From assembly GCF_017539065.1 (NCBI RefSeq), contig NZ_JAFYHP010000015.1:1-64000 (forward strand): a stretch of 64,000 nt of DNA. The letters are read 5' to 3'. The position numbers were made by a program, and so were the translations under genes. How positions within the stretch are numbered: position 1 is the stretch's first letter; each line of letters starts with the position of its first letter. This DNA comes from Methanobrevibacter sp. Lineage in GTDB: Archaea; Methanobacteriota; Methanobacteria; Methanobacteriales; Methanobacteriaceae. Shown in pieces: positions 7,431 to 14,109 of this stretch. Below the pieces are notes generated by a model, which made no database searches, was not told the DNA's origin, and saw only the letters and a list, made by a program, of their open reading frames with translations.

Positions 7431-7757
7431 ATGGAACGAGCAGTATGGATAATTTTAAACAAAAATTTTTCACTCACATTGGATGGTGAAGTAAAAGACG
7501 ATAAAGTTATTGATAAGAAGTTCTCACCCGGCGAAGATATTTGGACTAATGAGATTCCTATCTTGGGTTTTAGTGACGAAAATGTTCAAAAGGATTATGA
7601 CGAGTTCATATCCGACATATTCACATTGTTTGCAGAACCTACCGCCAATGAAGTATTCATCAATGCAAAGATAGGTGAGGAATCCGAGTATCTTAATTGT
7701 AAAAATCCCTTATTAATAAGAAAAATAGAAGAGTATCATGTTGATGAAATTATATAA
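7431..7757 (+). CDS. Conserved-looking acidic protein of unknown function
   Basis: 108 residues, acidic, no membrane segment and no recognised domain. It starts MERAVWIILNKNFSLTLDGE. A TTTATATGAT element about 25 bases before the ATG, with no ribosome site between, suggests a leaderless transcript. Its end overlaps the convergent gene at 7750 by eight bases. The steady codon pattern and proper start support a real gene. Confidence 0.55.
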   Translation: MERAVWIILNKNFSLTLDGEVKDDKVIDKKFSPGEDIWTNEIPILGFSDENVQKDYDEFISDIFTLFAEPTANEVFINAKIGEESEYLNCKNPLLIRKIEEYHVDEII

Positions 7758-8088
7758 GTGCAGTAGCCTTTTTTAGTATTTCATCCATATTACTAAATTC
7801 CAATGGTTCTCCATTATCTCCAACTGTTTCTGTTGTAATCAATACATGTGGGGAAGCCCATAAAAAAGAATATGCAAAATATGCTACATTAATGAAAATT
7901 AGTATTCCAATAAAGCTCAAAGCAGTTATCAAACAAACTGCATGAATTAAAAGATTTCCATACCTTCTTTTTTTCATCAGGATATAATTATCCTGTTCTT
8001 CAATCTTTTTAAATTTATTTTGAGACAATTCCTCGGAAATCTCTTCCATTTCTTTAGAATTGTCTGCATGCAATATAAATAAATCCAT
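7750..8088 (-). CDS. Small protein with two membrane helices, unknown function
   Basis: 112 residues. The first 45 are a soluble acidic alpha/beta stretch (MDLFILHADNSKEMEEISEE), followed by two membrane helices at about 50-68 and 70-85 and a soluble tail. No family was recognised. It begins one base after the nitroreductase stop with a GGATT ribosome site, so it is probably the last gene of that transcript. Confidence 0.55.
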   Translation of the reverse strand: MDLFILHADNSKEMEEISEELSQNKFKKIEEQDNYILMKKRRYGNLLIHAVCLITALSFIGILIFINVAYFAYSFLWASPHVLITTETVGDNGEPLEFSNMDEILKKATALI

Positions 8089-8089
8089 T

Positions 8090-8599
8090 TTAATCCATAT
8101 AAACTACAAATTCGTCTAATTCTTTTCTTGGAGTGTCCCTTGGTTCAGCATTACCATATCCCAATGGAGTAAATAAGACCGCTTCCTCATTTTCATCCAA
8201 GTTTAAAAATTCATGAGCTTTATTTTTCTTAAATGCACCAATATAACAAGTTCCAAGGCCAACATCAGTTGCTGCAAGAATCATGTGATCCATTACGATT
8301 GTTGCATCAATATCAGCAATGTTTTTTTGATCCCATGGTCTAGTCCATGCTTGGTCTTTTATACCCACTACACATAACACATAAGGCGCTTCGACAAACC
8401 ATTTAGCTCCATAAATTTCAGATAGCTCTTCTTTATACTTTTTAGTATCAATTACATAGACTTTAAATGGTTGATTATTTACACCTGTTGGTGCAATTGT
8501 TGCTGCTTTTAAGACATATTCCAGTTTTTCTGGTTCCACTTCTTTATCTAAATATCCTCTTACACTGTATCTTTCGTTAATAACGTCAATAAATTCCAT
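8090..8599 (-). CDS. Nitroreductase-family flavoprotein
   Basis: FMN-dependent NAD(P)H oxidoreductase fold of 169 residues, a short member of the family. The N-terminus carries the FMN-phosphate motif RYSVRGY (about 10-16) and the usual second motif APTGVNNQPFKVYVID. The late LGLGTCYIGAF-like stretch and LGYGNAEP complete the fold. Its GGGAT ribosome site overlaps the stop of the citrate-synthase-like gene, so it is cotranscribed with that gene. The substrate cannot be told; a ferredoxin-, F420- or NADPH-linked reduction in the same pathway is only a possibility. Confidence 0.85.
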   Translation of the reverse strand: MEFIDVINERYSVRGYLDKEVEPEKLEYVLKAATIAPTGVNNQPFKVYVIDTKKYKEELSEIYGAKWFVEAPYVLCVVGIKDQAWTRPWDQKNIADIDATIVMDHMILAATDVGLGTCYIGAFKKNKAHEFLNLDENEEAVLFTPLGYGNAEPRDTPRKELDEFVVYMD

Positions 8600-8603
8600 T
8601 TTA

Positions 8604-9398
8604 TCATCCCATGTATTCTACATCATCAAGGTCGCAAAACCTTCTAAACTCTTCTTCATCCATTTTTTCTTCATGAATATGTGCTATAATTCCTGGAAGT
8701 CTGCCTATCATAAATATTCCAAGACCTAACTCCGGTTCAAATCCCAAATCAGACAATAATGCTGCATTTGCACCGTCAACATTTAAACGGATGCCTTTCT
8801 TTTCAAAAACCAAATCCTGAAGTGCCAATGCCAATTTGACATGGGGACCTATGAACCCTTCATTGATGGCGATGTCTATTAATTTGTCCGCCCTTGGGTC
8901 GACATTATGATATCTGTGGCCAAATCCTGGAATCTTTCTGTCCTTAAGGATATATTCATTATGAATTTCGATAGCTAAACTTGCAATCTGCTTATTGTCA
9001 ATGTCCGGATCGTCAATCAAATGTGCTGAACCGATTTTGGATTGATATAATTCCATTGCTTTTTCAATAGCTCCTGCATGTTTATGTCCAAAAGATAAAA
9101 ATGCCCCTGCGGCCGCTGAATTCATCGGTGATCCTGAAGAGGCAATCAAACGTGCGGTTTGAGTGCTTGGGGGAGTTACACCATGGTCACAAAAAGAAAC
9201 TAAAACATGATTGAAAATTTTACTCTCTTTAAGAGATGGCAATCTGCCTTTTAGGAGTAGAAATACCATATCCCCATACCTTATTTTTTCAATCAAATCT
9301 CTTTGATTATATCCTCGAGTTACAATTTTATTTTCTTCAACTCGAGTAATCGCAGTTTTTAAAGACTTTGGATTAACCTTGAAATTATTTTCTTGCAT
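8604..9398 (-). CDS. Short citrate-synthase-fold protein, probable citryl-CoA lyase type
   Basis: 264 residues, against about 370-430 for true citrate synthases; the missing part is from the large domain. The active-site residues are kept: His72 (CDHGVTPPST), His107 (FGHKHAGA), His161 in GFGHRYHNVDPRA and Asp208 in NVDGANAALL. The length and pattern match stand-alone citryl-CoA lyases and the C-terminal part of ATP-citrate lyase. It may therefore cleave (or form) a citryl-CoA-like thioester. It sits in the carboxylic-acid cluster after the fumarase-like gene, from which a 54-base gap with a TATATATG element separates it, so it may also have its own promoter. Confidence 0.8.
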   Translation of the reverse strand: MQENNFKVNPKSLKTAITRVEENKIVTRGYNQRDLIEKIRYGDMVFLLLKGRLPSLKESKIFNHVLVSFCDHGVTPPSTQTARLIASSGSPMNSAAAGAFLSFGHKHAGAIEKAMELYQSKIGSAHLIDDPDIDNKQIASLAIEIHNEYILKDRKIPGFGHRYHNVDPRADKLIDIAINEGFIGPHVKLALALQDLVFEKKGIRLNVDGANAALLSDLGFEPELGLGIFMIGRLPGIIAHIHEEKMDEEEFRRFCDLDDVEYMG

Positions 9399-9452
9399 TT
9401 TTTAAACCTTTACACTTGTTAATTTAAAATAATCTTAATTCATATATAAACT

Positions 9453-10325
9453 TTACAATTTTAATGTCGCTACTCTCGGTTCTACAAAACAGGAGGGCCT
9501 AATAGAGACTATTCTAACGCCACTGGCTCTTTGATTTCCAATATTTAAATAACAACCTAAAACAGTTGTTTTTCCCCCTAAACCTAATGGCCCAATACCT
9601 GTCTGGTTTAATCTGTCTGTTATTTCCCGTTCATACTGACTTTGGTTTACTAAATTCCCATAAGCAATGGATTTAAGGAGTAGTGAAGTTGCTTCATAAT
9701 GTGTCCTTCCGATTCCTATTGATGGAATTGAAGGGGTGCAACCCAACATTTTAAGGGATGATTCCAGCCATTCACAAGCGGTATTGATTACATTTTCAAA
9801 AGACCGCTTATGATAAACTCTGTAAGTCTTTGACCTGATTTCAGGACCTCCTCCTTCAAGCAGAAAGTGCAGATTCAAGGTATCTGGAGAAATATCCCTT
9901 TTATAAGTTGATTCATCATTAATGGTATCGATTAATATTGATGCATTGGCGAGTTTGCCGGGTTCATCATATAATCCTTTATTTTGCTCAATACGTTCTA
10001 ATTCATCACCTTTAACGGCCATTGGCCTGGCTGGGAGACTATTTAAACCTAAAGCTATTCCTTCATGAATCTGATTCAACAACTCTCCGGTGATTTGCCT
10101 TTCATCACCTATTTCAATTATTACATGAGGAATCCCAGTATCGTCACATAAAGGGAATCTGTTTTTTTGGGCGACCTGATAGTTTTCTAAAATCTGTGAT
10201 AAAGCCCAGCGGGCATTTTCATTGTCTTCATTGTCGATTGCATGCTTCAATGCATCATGCTTATCATCTGAAAGTGTGGTTGAAGCCTCAATTATGGCTT
10301 TAGAAATATCATTTAAAATATCCAT
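9453..10325 (-). CDS. Fumarase / tartrate dehydratase-type iron-sulfur hydratase, alpha subunit only
   Basis: 290 residues matching the alpha subunit of class I two-subunit hydro-lyases (fumarase, L-tartrate dehydratase, mesaconase). The three cysteine ligands of the [4Fe-4S] cluster are visible: Cys60 (CDDTG), Cys196 (GCTPSIPSIGIGRT) and Cys258 (LGCYLNIG). The ATG at 10325 is chosen over upstream in-frame ATGs because it follows the previous stop by four bases with a GAGTGAT ribosome site; earlier starts would lie inside the neighbouring gene. No beta subunit follows, which is odd: the beta part normally completes the active site. It could be encoded elsewhere in the genome. Confidence 0.85.
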   Translation of the reverse strand: MDILNDISKAIIEASTTLSDDKHDALKHAIDNEDNENARWALSQILENYQVAQKNRFPLCDDTGIPHVIIEIGDERQITGELLNQIHEGIALGLNSLPARPMAVKGDELERIEQNKGLYDEPGKLANASILIDTINDESTYKRDISPDTLNLHFLLEGGGPEIRSKTYRVYHKRSFENVINTACEWLESSLKMLGCTPSIPSIGIGRTHYEATSLLLKSIAYGNLVNQSQYEREITDRLNQTGIGPLGLGGKTTVLGCYLNIGNQRASGVRIVSIRPSCFVEPRVATLKL

Positions 10326-10329
10326 AGAA

Positions 10330-11232
10330 TCACTCAGGAACCGCCAAATCACTGGACTTATCCGGTGAAGCAATTGCATCAGGATAATATTCATCAATCA
10401 TCCTTTTGACTAGTTTCACCTGTTTAATACGGGCAATAGCTTCTGCTTCTGTTGTATCCCAATTATGGTTGGCTGCAACTGATCCTCCGGTTTTTAGGTA
10501 AACCGGCGCCGCCACCTTGATGAATTTCGGAACTTCATAATGCCTTATGAATCCTCCGGTTGATTTCGGATTTTCGGTGTGCAAGTCCAATGTCATGTCA
10601 CATGCATCCCTAATGGCTGCAATCATCGGAATTTGCAAATCACGAACGGGATTCAGTGAGTCCAATCCGGTTTCTTCAAGTAATTTTGCAGATCCTGGAT
10701 TTGAATGACCTGCATGAGCAGATAATTTAAAATGAACATTATTTGGAATTTCGGATTCCTCTCGCATTTTGCTTAGAACCCAAAGCAGACCCTCATCATA
10801 AAGCAATATTCCGCGAACTCCCAACCTGCATGCTCTCTTTACATCTTCAATTGCATAAACAAGATTATCATAACCTCTTAATCTATAACCAATTCTGCTT
10901 CCTTCTTTGGTATTGACAGTAGCTGAAGTATCGTATGTAGCCCTTGGACCTACTGCCAAAAACAATTCGCATCCATACTCCTTAGCCAAGCCAACCATTT
11001 CCATAATCTCTTCATCAGTTAACATCATTATTCCTTTTGTCTGTGTAACCCGATGAATGAAAATATCATTTTTGCCGGCTTCGTCGAGAAGCGCCTTCAT
11101 TGTTTTTGGAGATTGGATTCCCGGAACTTCAAAACGGAACTGGCCTCCATCATCAAATCTTTTGGAGGAGACATAATCCGCAGAAACCTCTTCAATACCT
11201 ATTTTTTTAAGGAATTTTTTTGTTTTTTCCAT
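10330..11232 (-). CDS. TIM-barrel protein distantly like U32 peptidases, function unknown
   Basis: 300 soluble residues with a beta/alpha-barrel pattern. It resembles proteins annotated as 'U32 peptidase' but is shorter, and I see no support for proteolysis. Notable conserved-looking segments are FHIR-like IFIHRVTQTKG, ILLYDEGLLW, LSAHAGHSNPG, LDLHTENPKSTGGF and AANHNWDTTEAEA; the several His and Asp/Glu residues could bind a metal or a carboxylate substrate. It lies between the PrpD-type dehydratase and the fumarase-type alpha subunit with gaps of about five bases, so it very probably acts on the same metabolite. Confidence 0.6.
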   Translation of the reverse strand: MEKTKKFLKKIGIEEVSADYVSSKRFDDGGQFRFEVPGIQSPKTMKALLDEAGKNDIFIHRVTQTKGIMMLTDEEIMEMVGLAKEYGCELFLAVGPRATYDTSATVNTKEGSRIGYRLRGYDNLVYAIEDVKRACRLGVRGILLYDEGLLWVLSKMREESEIPNNVHFKLSAHAGHSNPGSAKLLEETGLDSLNPVRDLQIPMIAAIRDACDMTLDLHTENPKSTGGFIRHYEVPKFIKVAAPVYLKTGGSVAANHNWDTTEAEAIARIKQVKLVKRMIDEYYPDAIASPDKSSDLAVPE

Positions 11233-11237
11233 AATAT

Positions 11238-12647
11238 CTACTCATTTAATTTGCGAACAACATATTTCATTGTATAATCTTCAAGTGAATCGATTACTGT
11301 CAGATTGCTAATATTATAATGTGGATTTAATCCTTTGAACTTGTCAATCAATTCTTTTAGCTGGAATGGATTTTCATAATCTCCCTTTGGAAGAAAAGTA
11401 ATGTTCTGGAAAATTCCATTTCTAAAGCTTTTGTCTAATTTAATAACGACATTTGACGGCCTTCTTTCGGGATACAATTCATTTAATTTATCATCTTCGA
11501 CAATTATCATGTGGTCAACTATATGTTTGATGCTTTTTACCTTATCCACAGTCGAATAATTTTCCAAAAGACCGAATTCCATTAGCTGATTAATGTCATC
11601 GACACTTACTTCTCCAACAACCAATGAAATTGCAACGGCATAAGGAAGGCTTTGCCTCAACTCTTCAATATTTTTGGGATTGAAATTGTTGTGTTCCGCC
11701 GCAACGGAATACGTCTTGATGGCCACATTCTGGATATGGTTATATTCATCTCCTATACTTGCCTTTAGCTTTAATGCCGTATCTATTGATGAATGCAGGT
11801 GTCTGCAGAATGGGTATTTTTTAAAGTAAATATCTCTAACCCTCACTTTTCCAACATCTTTCAAGATATTGTCAAATGAGAAATCTTCCTGCTTAAAGTC
11901 ATCGCCGCCAACAACCATGGTTTTTAAAAATCCTTCGTTACCTTCAAAAATGGTTCCGCTTCCAGTAAAACCGTTTCTTGCAAGATATGCTGATAAAATT
12001 CCATTATAAACGGCTTTTCCAACATGCAATGATTTTCCCATTGATCCGCCATGGTCTGATTCCAACAACCCCGCCGCCTGAGTTCCACATAACCCTAAAG
12101 CGTTCAGTATTTGATTTTCATCAAGTTTCAACAATTTGGAAGCGACACTGCCCGCCACAAATGTGCCTATTGTTCCGGTAGTGTGGAATCCTTTGTTCCT
12201 GTGTTCGGGATTGACGATTTTACCTAAAAGAATGCCTATTTCATAGCCTACCATGACAGCTTCTATGAATTCCCTTCCTGTCAAATCATAAGCTTCAGAA
12301 ATTGCCAGAGCTGTTGGGAAGATGACAGAACCTAAGTGAATCTGGGCTCCTCTGTGACCGTCATCCAATTCCAATACATGTGCAGAAACTCCATTTACCA
12401 ATCCTGCATTCAGAACATCTGTTTTCACACCAGTTCCAATTATGGATGCCTCCAGATTTGAATTAGAGATTCCATGAAATATTTCTCCAACAGTGTTTAG
12501 TGCTATTGTTGGAGCTTCTTCGGCCATGCCCCTATAAGTTACACCGAAAAAGTCTAGAAATGCTGCTTTTACCGTAGCGATTGATTCTGAAGTTGCTTGT
12601 TCATAGCGATAGTTTGAAATAAATTTAGAAATATTTTGTAAAAACAT
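11238..12647 (-). CDS. MmgE/PrpD-family dehydratase
   Basis: 469 residues, the normal length of MmgE/PrpD proteins, which include 2-methylcitrate dehydratase, cis-aconitate decarboxylase and iminodisuccinate epimerase. Family blocks are clear: DFFGVTYRGMAEEAP near 30, ELDDGHRGAQIHLGSVIFP near 95, GYEIGILLGK, GFHTTGTIGTF, SDHGGSMGKSLHVGKA and the late KKYPFCRHLHSSIDTALK. The ATG follows a GGTGGG ribosome site. It heads three tightly spaced genes (PrpD, TIM-barrel, fumarase alpha). The exact substrate cannot be read from the sequence; a hydroxylated tricarboxylate is the default guess. Confidence 0.88.
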   Translation of the reverse strand: MFLQNISKFISNYRYEQATSESIATVKAAFLDFFGVTYRGMAEEAPTIALNTVGEIFHGISNSNLEASIIGTGVKTDVLNAGLVNGVSAHVLELDDGHRGAQIHLGSVIFPTALAISEAYDLTGREFIEAVMVGYEIGILLGKIVNPEHRNKGFHTTGTIGTFVAGSVASKLLKLDENQILNALGLCGTQAAGLLESDHGGSMGKSLHVGKAVYNGILSAYLARNGFTGSGTIFEGNEGFLKTMVVGGDDFKQEDFSFDNILKDVGKVRVRDIYFKKYPFCRHLHSSIDTALKLKASIGDEYNHIQNVAIKTYSVAAEHNNFNPKNIEELRQSLPYAVAISLVVGEVSVDDINQLMEFGLLENYSTVDKVKSIKHIVDHMIIVEDDKLNELYPERRPSNVVIKLDKSFRNGIFQNITFLPKGDYENPFQLKELIDKFKGLNPHYNISNLTVIDSLEDYTMKYVVRKLNE

Positions 12648-12716
12648 ACCCCACCTATAATATATCTATGTAAAAAGTAGTATTAAATAGTTAAGATTAT
12701 AATTAAAAAAGTTAAT

Positions 12717-13208
12717 TTAAACAGCTGGAACACCGGTTAAAACAAGTACGATGTGTGCTACAATAGCTGCTCCATAATAGGTTGCTGCAATAACTAAAAC
12801 AGTAATGACAATTGCTCTCCAACCTAATGCCTTAAATTCATCCCAGCTTTTACCCATTCCAATACCAACATATGCTAAAAATACGGTTACTATGGCTAAA
12901 AGTTCGATTTGAGAAACATATTTTAGAACGAACTCTGAAGTAGGCATGCCTGGGAAAGCCACGATAATACCGATTACGCTTATGTATAGAATTGAAGAAA
13001 TGTCCAATGGCACGTATCTTTCCAGCCATACTCCTATAAGGGTTATGAAAGACAATATGGCCATCCCAATTAATGAACCTTCAATAGGATGATGATAACC
13101 CAAGAAATTACCGACTGCGGTTATGACTGAAAATATGAATAACAATAAAATCCAATTGAAAATACCATGAACTGATACGTTTTCAGAGCTGTCAATCAAA
13201 TCAGGCAT
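12717..13208 (-). CDS. Membrane protein, second part of a DUF3100-associated pair
   Basis: 163 residues with about five hydrophobic helices and little else, no known motif. The ATG at 13208 follows GGAGGA at the end of the upstream DUF3100-like gene and overlaps it by eight bases, so the two are translationally coupled and probably form one membrane complex. Two further in-frame starts upstream lie within that ribosome site. A carboxylate transporter role is inferred only from the neighbouring enzymes. Confidence 0.6.
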   Translation of the reverse strand: MPDLIDSSENVSVHGIFNWILLLFIFSVITAVGNFLGYHHPIEGSLIGMAILSFITLIGVWLERYVPLDISSILYISVIGIIVAFPGMPTSEFVLKYVSQIELLAIVTVFLAYVGIGMGKSWDEFKALGWRAIVITVLVIAATYYGAAIVAHIVLVLTGVPAV

Positions 13209-14109
13209 TATTATCATCCTCCTTCTCCGGCATTATTGAATCTCTTCCAATTTTAGGTTCTAACCAATCATATACTCTTTCTGTTAACGGAAGTGCTATA
13301 AATATTACAATATATATTCCAACACAGAATGATAATAAATTACTGAATCCTGCAAATGCTTCAATTTGAGTTTCCATTCCTGGAAATGCCGCCAAAGTAG
13401 GGCCAATAGCTGCAGCATTCATACTGGCACTGCCCACCCCACTTGCCATCGCAAATGCGTATGGGTGTAGTGGTAAGAAGGATAGTGAAAATGTTACTAA
13501 AAAACTGATAAATATTGTACCGATAACAGTACCGATAATGAATATCGCAAATACCCCTCTTGATTCAGGGGAGTTAAATCCATATTTATCAACAACAACA
13601 GCAACGTTCGGTTCCCTACCAATGGAATTTGTCATACCAATTGCTTCTTTTTTGAATCCTAAAAGCAATGCAATTGGAAGTACCAAAATTGTTGCCAAGT
13701 GCCCGATTTCCTGTAATATTAAAGCGGGACCCATTTCAAAAATCAAACCGATTGACTGTCCACTAGAAATAGCTAATTTTGCAATCAAAACACCAATGAA
13801 AAGCATCATAGCCCCTTCAGCAATACGGGCTTGCTTTCTATGAATCCATTTGATCGGTTTGATTAGATAAAAAGCAAGGCCTAAAATAATAGTATAAATC
13901 AAAGGCATTATTGTAATTGCAACATCTTTGGTGATAGGAATTTTAATTGTACCTATTAACTCTGCAATAATTACTAAAACAAGAACAGTTCCGTGTAAAC
14001 GAACATCTCTCCATGGATTTCTTTTTAAAATACGTTTATCCGTTTTTTCACGGTAAATATGTTCAACATGCGTGTCTGGTTTTTTATCAGGAATAATAAT
14101 CCACTCCAA
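13201..14109 (-). CDS. DUF3100-like multi-pass membrane protein, candidate organic-acid transporter
   Basis: 302 residues with about eight membrane helices after a basic cytoplasmic N-terminus. A central loop holds IGREPNVAVVVDKYGFNSPESRG, and a later Gly/Ala/Ser-rich stretch (ASGVGSASMNAAAIGPTLAA) looks like a substrate-contact segment of a transporter. I assign it to the DUF3100 family from memory of this pattern. The first in-frame start is TTG at 14109, but a GGAGTGGAT site lies right there and the next codons are three ATT codons; no ATG is available nearby, so the true start is uncertain. First gene of the carboxylic-acid cluster. Confidence 0.65.
   Translation of the reverse strand: MEWIIIPDKKPDTHVEHIYREKTDKRILKRNPWRDVRLHGTVLVLVIIAELIGTIKIPITKDVAITIMPLIYTIILGLAFYLIKPIKWIHRKQARIAEGAMMLFIGVLIAKLAISSGQSIGLIFEMGPALILQEIGHLATILVLPIALLLGFKKEAIGMTNSIGREPNVAVVVDKYGFNSPESRGVFAIFIIGTVIGTIFISFLVTFSLSFLPLHPYAFAMASGVGSASMNAAAIGPTLAAFPGMETQIEAFAGFSNLLSFCVGIYIVIFIALPLTERVYDWLEPKIGRDSIMPEKEDDNNA

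Follow-up and report, generated by a model that had tools for sequence, protein, structure and literature searches.

A conserved enzyme cluster of Methanobacteria that probably makes a branched polycarboxylic acid, possibly the tail of methanofuran

We analysed a stretch of 64,000 nucleotides (nt) of DNA from Methanobrevibacter sp. (assembly GCF_017539065.1, contig NZ_JAFYHP010000015.1, positions 1 to 64,000; this whole stretch is called the window). A first-pass annotation had placed a cluster of genes for carboxylic acid metabolism here, all on one strand and with a nitroreductase directly behind. The coordinates were confirmed: all genes lie on the minus strand, and the nitroreductase gene directly follows that of CCL, a citrate-synthase-fold protein. 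The genes are as follows, with the evidence for their assignment in brackets.

13201-14109, minus strand: DUF3100 multi-pass membrane protein (PF11299, 284.2 bits)
12717-13217, minus strand: second half of the DUF3100 membrane pair (fused with DUF3100 in a single reading frame in relatives)
11238-12647, minus strand: PrpD, dehydratase-type protein of the MmgE/PrpD family (PF03972, 227.9 bits; PF19305, 85.8 bits)
10330-11232, minus strand: U32L, U32-like TIM-barrel protein (AlphaFold2 model, Foldseek, distant Peptidase_U32 matches, family-wide alignment)
9453-10325, minus strand: FumA', alpha subunit of a class I Fe-S hydro-lyase (PF05681, 178.6 bits)
8604-9398, minus strand: CCL, short citrate-synthase-fold protein with the C-terminal domain only, citryl-CoA-lyase-like (PF00285; NF004866)
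8090-8599, minus strand: nitroreductase-family flavoprotein (PF00881, 94.6 bits)

The two membrane genes overlap by 17 nt. The intergenic gaps are 5 nt between PrpD and U32L, 4 nt between U32L and FumA', 54 nt between FumA' and CCL and 4 nt between CCL and the nitroreductase. The listed reading frame of FumA' opens with a TTG at 10397 and overlaps the U32L gene by 68 nt; its true start is likely the ATG at 10325, which gives a product of 290 amino acids (aa). Relatives used for comparison include genomes that we take to be those of M. smithii, M. thermautotrophicus Delta H, Methanothermus fervidus, M. ruminantium M1 and Methanosphaera stadtmanae. It had been proposed that the locus may carry three transcripts, with TATA-like elements in gaps of 69 and 54 nt. 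Both gaps are real; the 54-nt gap contains TTTATATA at 9450-9443, and the 69-nt gap only weaker A+T-rich sequence. In the M. thermautotrophicus genome the gap between FumA' and CCL is just 9 nt. A separate CCL promoter is therefore not general, and the core of PrpD, U32L, FumA' and CCL was probably one transcript ancestrally.

The assignment of the enzymes to a PrpD, a U32-like TIM barrel, a fumarase-type alpha subunit and a short citrate synthase was borne out. CCL scores 413.7 bits against the citryl-CoA lyase model NF004866 (cut-off 245); this is a subfamily-level model, and the match therefore does not fix the substrate. The closest structure is citryl-CoA lyase 6hxp (175 bits). With this enzyme and the C-terminal module of ATP-citrate lyase, CCL shares the short architecture and the catalytic residues, H107, H161 and D208 (own numbering) being invariant in 66 of 66 homologues. 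Unlike citryl-CoA lyase systems, the cluster is without a citryl-CoA synthetase partner. Both MmgE/PrpD Pfam domains of PrpD exceed the cut-off of 32.1 bits, and residues D95, D96, H104, H155, K205, C281 and H285 are conserved in 66 of 66 homologues. Its nearest relatives are IDS-epimerase (114 bits) and B. subtilis IRG1. PrpD shares both domains and the conserved histidines and lysine with these proteins and with the cis-aconitate decarboxylase IRG1, but differs from the characterised members of the family in having no close relative among them. FumA' belongs to the fold family of the class I fumarases and tartrate dehydratases with separate subunits. Its three cluster cysteines (59, 195 and 278, numbered from a codon-shifted copy) are conserved in 74 of 74 homologues and align with those of 7xky. 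It is a diverged paralogue with 21-36% identity to canonical alpha subunits, and it scores 125 bits where the fumarate hydratase cut-off is 276, which does not agree with a housekeeping fumarase. In these alignments, the catalytic residues of CCL, PrpD and FumA' are intact.

Searched alone, U32L gave no Pfam match at 1e-3, and PF01136 reached 17.2 bits against a gathering score of 22.4. However, 23 of 24 U32L homologues match Peptidase_U32 at an E-value of 1 or below (best 4e-8), and 44 positions are invariant across 24 diverse homologues. The AlphaFold2 model is a confident TIM barrel with a predicted local distance difference test score (pLDDT) of 88.6. In a Foldseek search, the U32 protein Mk0906 (5d88) was its best match in the PDB, followed by class II aldolases, with TM-scores of 0.43-0.55; 2-methylisocitrate lyase is among the matches at rank 44. 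U32L thus has a fold related to Peptidase U32 but is not a member of that family by gathering score.

Class I Fe-S hydro-lyases of the separate-subunit type require a beta subunit. The genome encodes two of these, a canonical one (contig C1) and a second one, FumB' (C22:51580-52071; L120 9581-10072), as well as a separate canonical alpha subunit on contig C16. FumB' is 47-49% identical to the beta subunit of a Clostridial operon, compared to 30-31% for the canonical beta. This Clostridial beta gene sits directly upstream of the alpha gene in Acetatifactor muris (L087) and in a second Clostridia metagenome-assembled genome (L088). The alpha and beta trees both split cluster-type from canonical subunits with support of 100/100. 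FumA' and FumB' each group with the Clostridial side-by-side subunits, with about 44-54% identity within the clade versus 21-36% to canonical sequences. FumB' is thus the predicted dedicated partner of FumA', although the two genes are unlinked in Methanobacteria, unlike in class I fumarases. Action of the alpha subunit alone was rejected once FumB' was found. In the M. thermautotrophicus Delta H genome, FumB' is split over two frames (L155 7510-7999) and is intact in close relatives; the split may reflect an error in sequencing or a true frameshift.

The first-pass annotation had suggested a search for the enzyme genes in other genomes, and they were found together there. The core is syntenic across four families of the class Methanobacteria at about 38-67% protein identity. 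The order PrpD-U32L-FumA'-CCL is kept in Methanobrevibacter, in two more families of the order and in the family of genome G049, and the clustering is far beyond chance. U32L was found in 50 of 61 sampled genomes, and the 11 genomes lacking it all belong to other archaeal phyla. In a wider set of the phylum it is present in 115 of 132 genomes and 19 of 20 genera. The U32L tree mirrors taxonomy, and its Clostridial and Desulfurococcaceae relatives do not separate clearly at the base. The earlier view that the cluster is unusual for this organism had to be dropped, as nearly every relative carries the enzyme set. The core is also present in small autotroph genomes such as those of Methanothermus fervidus and M. 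thermautotrophicus, and its occurrence across a class that includes such H2/CO2 autotrophs fits biosynthesis. The cluster is split in a few Methanobacteriaceae (L084-L086, L090). Methanothermobacter-type genomes and some others carry a second copy of the short citrate synthase CCL away from the cluster (G047:C1:1580166-1580720, G043:C1:259655-260215, also G142:C9).

All 17 genomes of the wider set that lack U32L belong to a single genus, almost certainly Methanosphaera. These 17 genomes also contain no PF00285 protein and no FumB', and they retain the canonical FumB. The cluster and the unlinked FumB' were thus lost jointly in one genus. Methanosphaera grows on methanol and H2 and is not known to reduce CO2 to methane.

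A connection to a known pathway is given by the position of FumB'. In 14 genomes from four families, spanning Methanothermobacter, Methanothermus, family f3 and four genera of Methanobacteriaceae, FumB' adjoins mfnA on the same strand; the genes overlap by 4 nt in Methanothermus and lie about 21 nt apart in Delta H. Outside Methanobrevibacter, this neighbourhood is found in most of the Methanobacteria checked. MfnA was identified by TIGR03812 (537, 572 and 552 bits; cut-off 299). The mfnA gene encodes the tyrosine decarboxylase of methanofuran synthesis, and in M. stadtmanae it retains its upstream neighbours while FumB' is gone. MfnA to MfnF build the core of methanofuran (PMC11365854). For M. 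thermoautotrophicus Marburg, 1,3,4,6-hexanetetracarboxylic acid (HTCA) is described as a methanofuran component and major solute (PMC1224877), and the Fwd structure of Methanothermobacter wolfeii names a tricarboxyheptanoyl tail on the coenzyme (PMC13397495). In the papers available, which did not include the original work on HTCA and methanofuran, we found no gene to which the HTCA tail is ascribed. The literature search also found nothing on MTH962-965, which are guessed locus numbers for the M. thermautotrophicus cluster.

Class-wide vertical inheritance, autotrophic hosts and a subunit gene beside mfnA together point to the biosynthesis of a methanofuran-related polycarboxylic acid. The enzyme set is probably biosynthetic and directed at a branched polycarboxylic acid. 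Our leading explanation, to which we give even odds, is that PrpD, U32L, FumA', CCL and the unlinked FumB' make HTCA, the methanofuran tail in Methanobacteriales, by reactions akin to those of the methylcitrate cycle. A fuller proposal is tentative and to our mind slightly doubtful: the cluster and FumB' may be the missing HTCA pathway, assembled from re-tooled methylcitrate-cycle-like enzymes, with a U32-like barrel whose carbon-carbon or hydro-lyase activity would be new, and the tail may have been discarded in Methanosphaera.

The structure of HTCA is compatible with such a route. If the central carbon-carbon bond of its skeleton is cut, two C5 glutarate chains are obtained that are joined C2 to C2'. 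This matches a route in which an acyl-CoA or carbanion adds to 2-oxoglutarate at the keto carbon and the product is then dehydrated and reduced. By analogy, such joining, dehydration and reduction would be chemistry of the enzyme families found here. For the product, the substrates, the direction, the order of steps, the role of U32L and the reductase, we infer the following. Either CCL, by condensing an acyl-CoA with a 2-oxo acid, or U32L, in an aldol-type reaction, would couple a C5 acyl donor with 2-oxoglutarate at its keto carbon. The hydroxyl group would then be taken off or shifted by PrpD and by FumA'B', the Fe-S hydro-lyase, and a flavoprotein would reduce the double bond. In Methanobrevibacter this could be the nitroreductase, which is a candidate double-bond reductase; elsewhere another enzyme would be needed. 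The nitroreductase is linked to the core solely in Methanobrevibacter and allied genera and was not found beside it in Methanothermobacter, Methanothermus or family f3. Two small uncharacterised proteins adjoin it at window positions 7431-8088, a membrane-like one of 112 aa on the minus strand and one of 108 aa on the plus strand, and both are conserved in Methanobrevibacter. The earlier suggestion of dehydration, rehydration and carbon-carbon cleavage fits the families as far as hydro-lyase and carbon-carbon chemistry on a polycarboxylic acid is concerned; as to the direction, condensation is equally possible.

Several observations weigh against HTCA as the product. The core cluster itself is not adjacent to mfn genes, and the FumB' of Methanobrevibacter is not next to mfnA but divergent to an operon of 2-oxoglutarate:ferredoxin oxidoreductase (kor) and sucC. 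The mfnA adjacency could be a single ancestral accident kept as neutral synteny; the neighbours Trm56 and pps are kept too. The analysis identified neither a C5 acyl donor nor a ligase or general reductase. The main counter-evidence is that Methanosphaera retains mfnB (17/17), mfnA (16/17) and fwdA (17/17) and appears still to make and use methanofuran without the enzyme set. Therefore, either its methanofuran is without HTCA or the acid is a different one. The Clostridial loci (L087 5050-13471, L088 903-11732) are a further point. They carry one or two PrpD genes, U32L, a CitE-like lyase, FumB', FumA' and an ATP-grasp protein, and the orthologues sit amid aminotransferase, ATP-grasp, asparagine-synthase, glycosyltransferase and nucleotide-sugar genes. 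These loci look like surface-polysaccharide gene sets in which a CitE-type lyase replaces CCL, and the Clostridial versions may make another product. HTCA is not known from such loci. L087 additionally contains an aldo/keto reductase and a phosphonopyruvate-decarboxylase-like enzyme; the phosphonate-type chemistry hinted at by the latter was rejected, as no such gene lies beside U32L in L088 or in archaea. Where the cluster is split in relatives (L067, L070, L072-L074, L090), the interposed genes yielded neither a ligase nor a reductase; they look unrelated and are of types such as toxin-antitoxin, DNA-repair and methyltransferase.

The Clostridial neighbourhoods and the methanofuran genes of Methanosphaera also speak for a biosynthetic polycarboxylate module with a product other than HTCA, such as a different part of a coenzyme, a solute, or a substituent of the surface or cell wall. 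We regard this as possible but unlikely, given the mfnA-FumB' neighbourhood in four families. In addition, HTCA is the sole polycarboxylic acid known to us as a marker of Methanobacteriales (see also PMC1224877).

The first-pass annotation had favoured uptake of a di- or tricarboxylate by the DUF3100 pair, with the enzymes dehydrating, rehydrating and cleaving it. The enzyme families do act on such acids, and in Methanobrevibacter the membrane genes adjoin the cluster. A model of the fused DUF3100 protein (pLDDT 72) gave no significant match in the PDB; it weakly resembles secondary transporters including CitS, at a non-significant E-value of 0.02, and a literature search found nothing on DUF3100. 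The distribution of the pair differs from that of the enzymes: it is absent from Methanothermobacter, Methanothermus and family f3, all of which carry the enzymes, and occurs in each of the nine Methanosphaera genomes checked, all of which lack them. The pair is thus not essential to the system and probably stands outside the enzyme set, and uptake of the substrate by it was rejected on this distribution. As the enzymes are also conserved in strict autotrophs with small genomes and FumB' adjoins mfnA, uptake and catabolism are improbable as the function of the cluster. The membrane pair and the nitroreductase are later neighbours of the core. In Methanobrevibacter the pair is often tandem-duplicated, and elsewhere it is fused as a single protein (duplicated or fused examples are L034 5593-8512 and G000:C13:87344-88051). 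Several Methanosphaera genomes carry it a few kilobases from the canonical fumB.

A true methylcitrate-type cycle acting on propionyl-CoA and 2-methylcitrate, or an alternative C4/C5 acid route for amino-acid synthesis, is likewise hard to reconcile with the data and has little probability. The folds correspond one-to-one to PrpC, PrpD, AcnB/AcnD and PrpB, with a citrate-synthase-fold enzyme for the carbon-carbon step, a PrpD-family dehydratase, an Fe-S hydratase and a TIM-barrel lyase-type protein, and 2-methylisocitrate lyase is among the structural matches of U32L. On the other hand, PrpD falls far short of the cut-offs of the curated models for 2-methylcitrate dehydratase (41 vs 950, 41 vs 575 and 35 vs 458 bits). 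CCL is a short protein that lacks the greater part of the N-terminal half found in citrate synthase, the hydratase is of the fumarase alpha/beta type instead of an aconitase, and the barrel is U32-like, no member of the PrpB sequence family having been found in the cluster. Finally, neighbours without a common pathway, kept together by vertical inheritance, are a largely refuted and very improbable explanation: throughout the class the region is conserved from TiaS on one side to the A-type ATP synthase at its other end, which means that part of the adjacency is inherited, but the cluster and the unlinked FumB' were lost jointly in one genus, and PrpD, U32L, FumA' and FumB' co-occur independently in Clostridia.

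Homologues of U32L occur in other settings as well. Bacterial ones with 38-43% identity (L096 7752-15281, L101, L095) lie beside an IlvD-type dehydratase, an IclR regulator, an FAH-family protein or an aldehyde dehydrogenase, and these loci probably serve sugar-acid metabolism. Distant homologues in Bacillus and Acidobacteria have sugar-acid dehydratase-like or aldehyde-dehydrogenase-like neighbours, with the families judged by eye. A Desulfurococcaceae locus (L092 8850-19567) combines a U32L homologue of about 50% identity with a malate/lactate-type dehydrogenase, a creatininase-like protein, an aldehyde:ferredoxin oxidoreductase, a CoA-transferase pair, a nitroreductase and a TRAP transporter, and looks catabolic.

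Methanofuran is the carrier of the first carbon in methanogenesis from CO2, and methane production in the gut is dominated by Methanobacteriales. With five candidate genes of clear distribution, the question of how its tail is made becomes directly testable. If the assignment to HTCA is true, it would give a function to a U32-like family that is also present in bacteria, and a coenzyme step specific to Methanobacteria would be of interest for methane mitigation.

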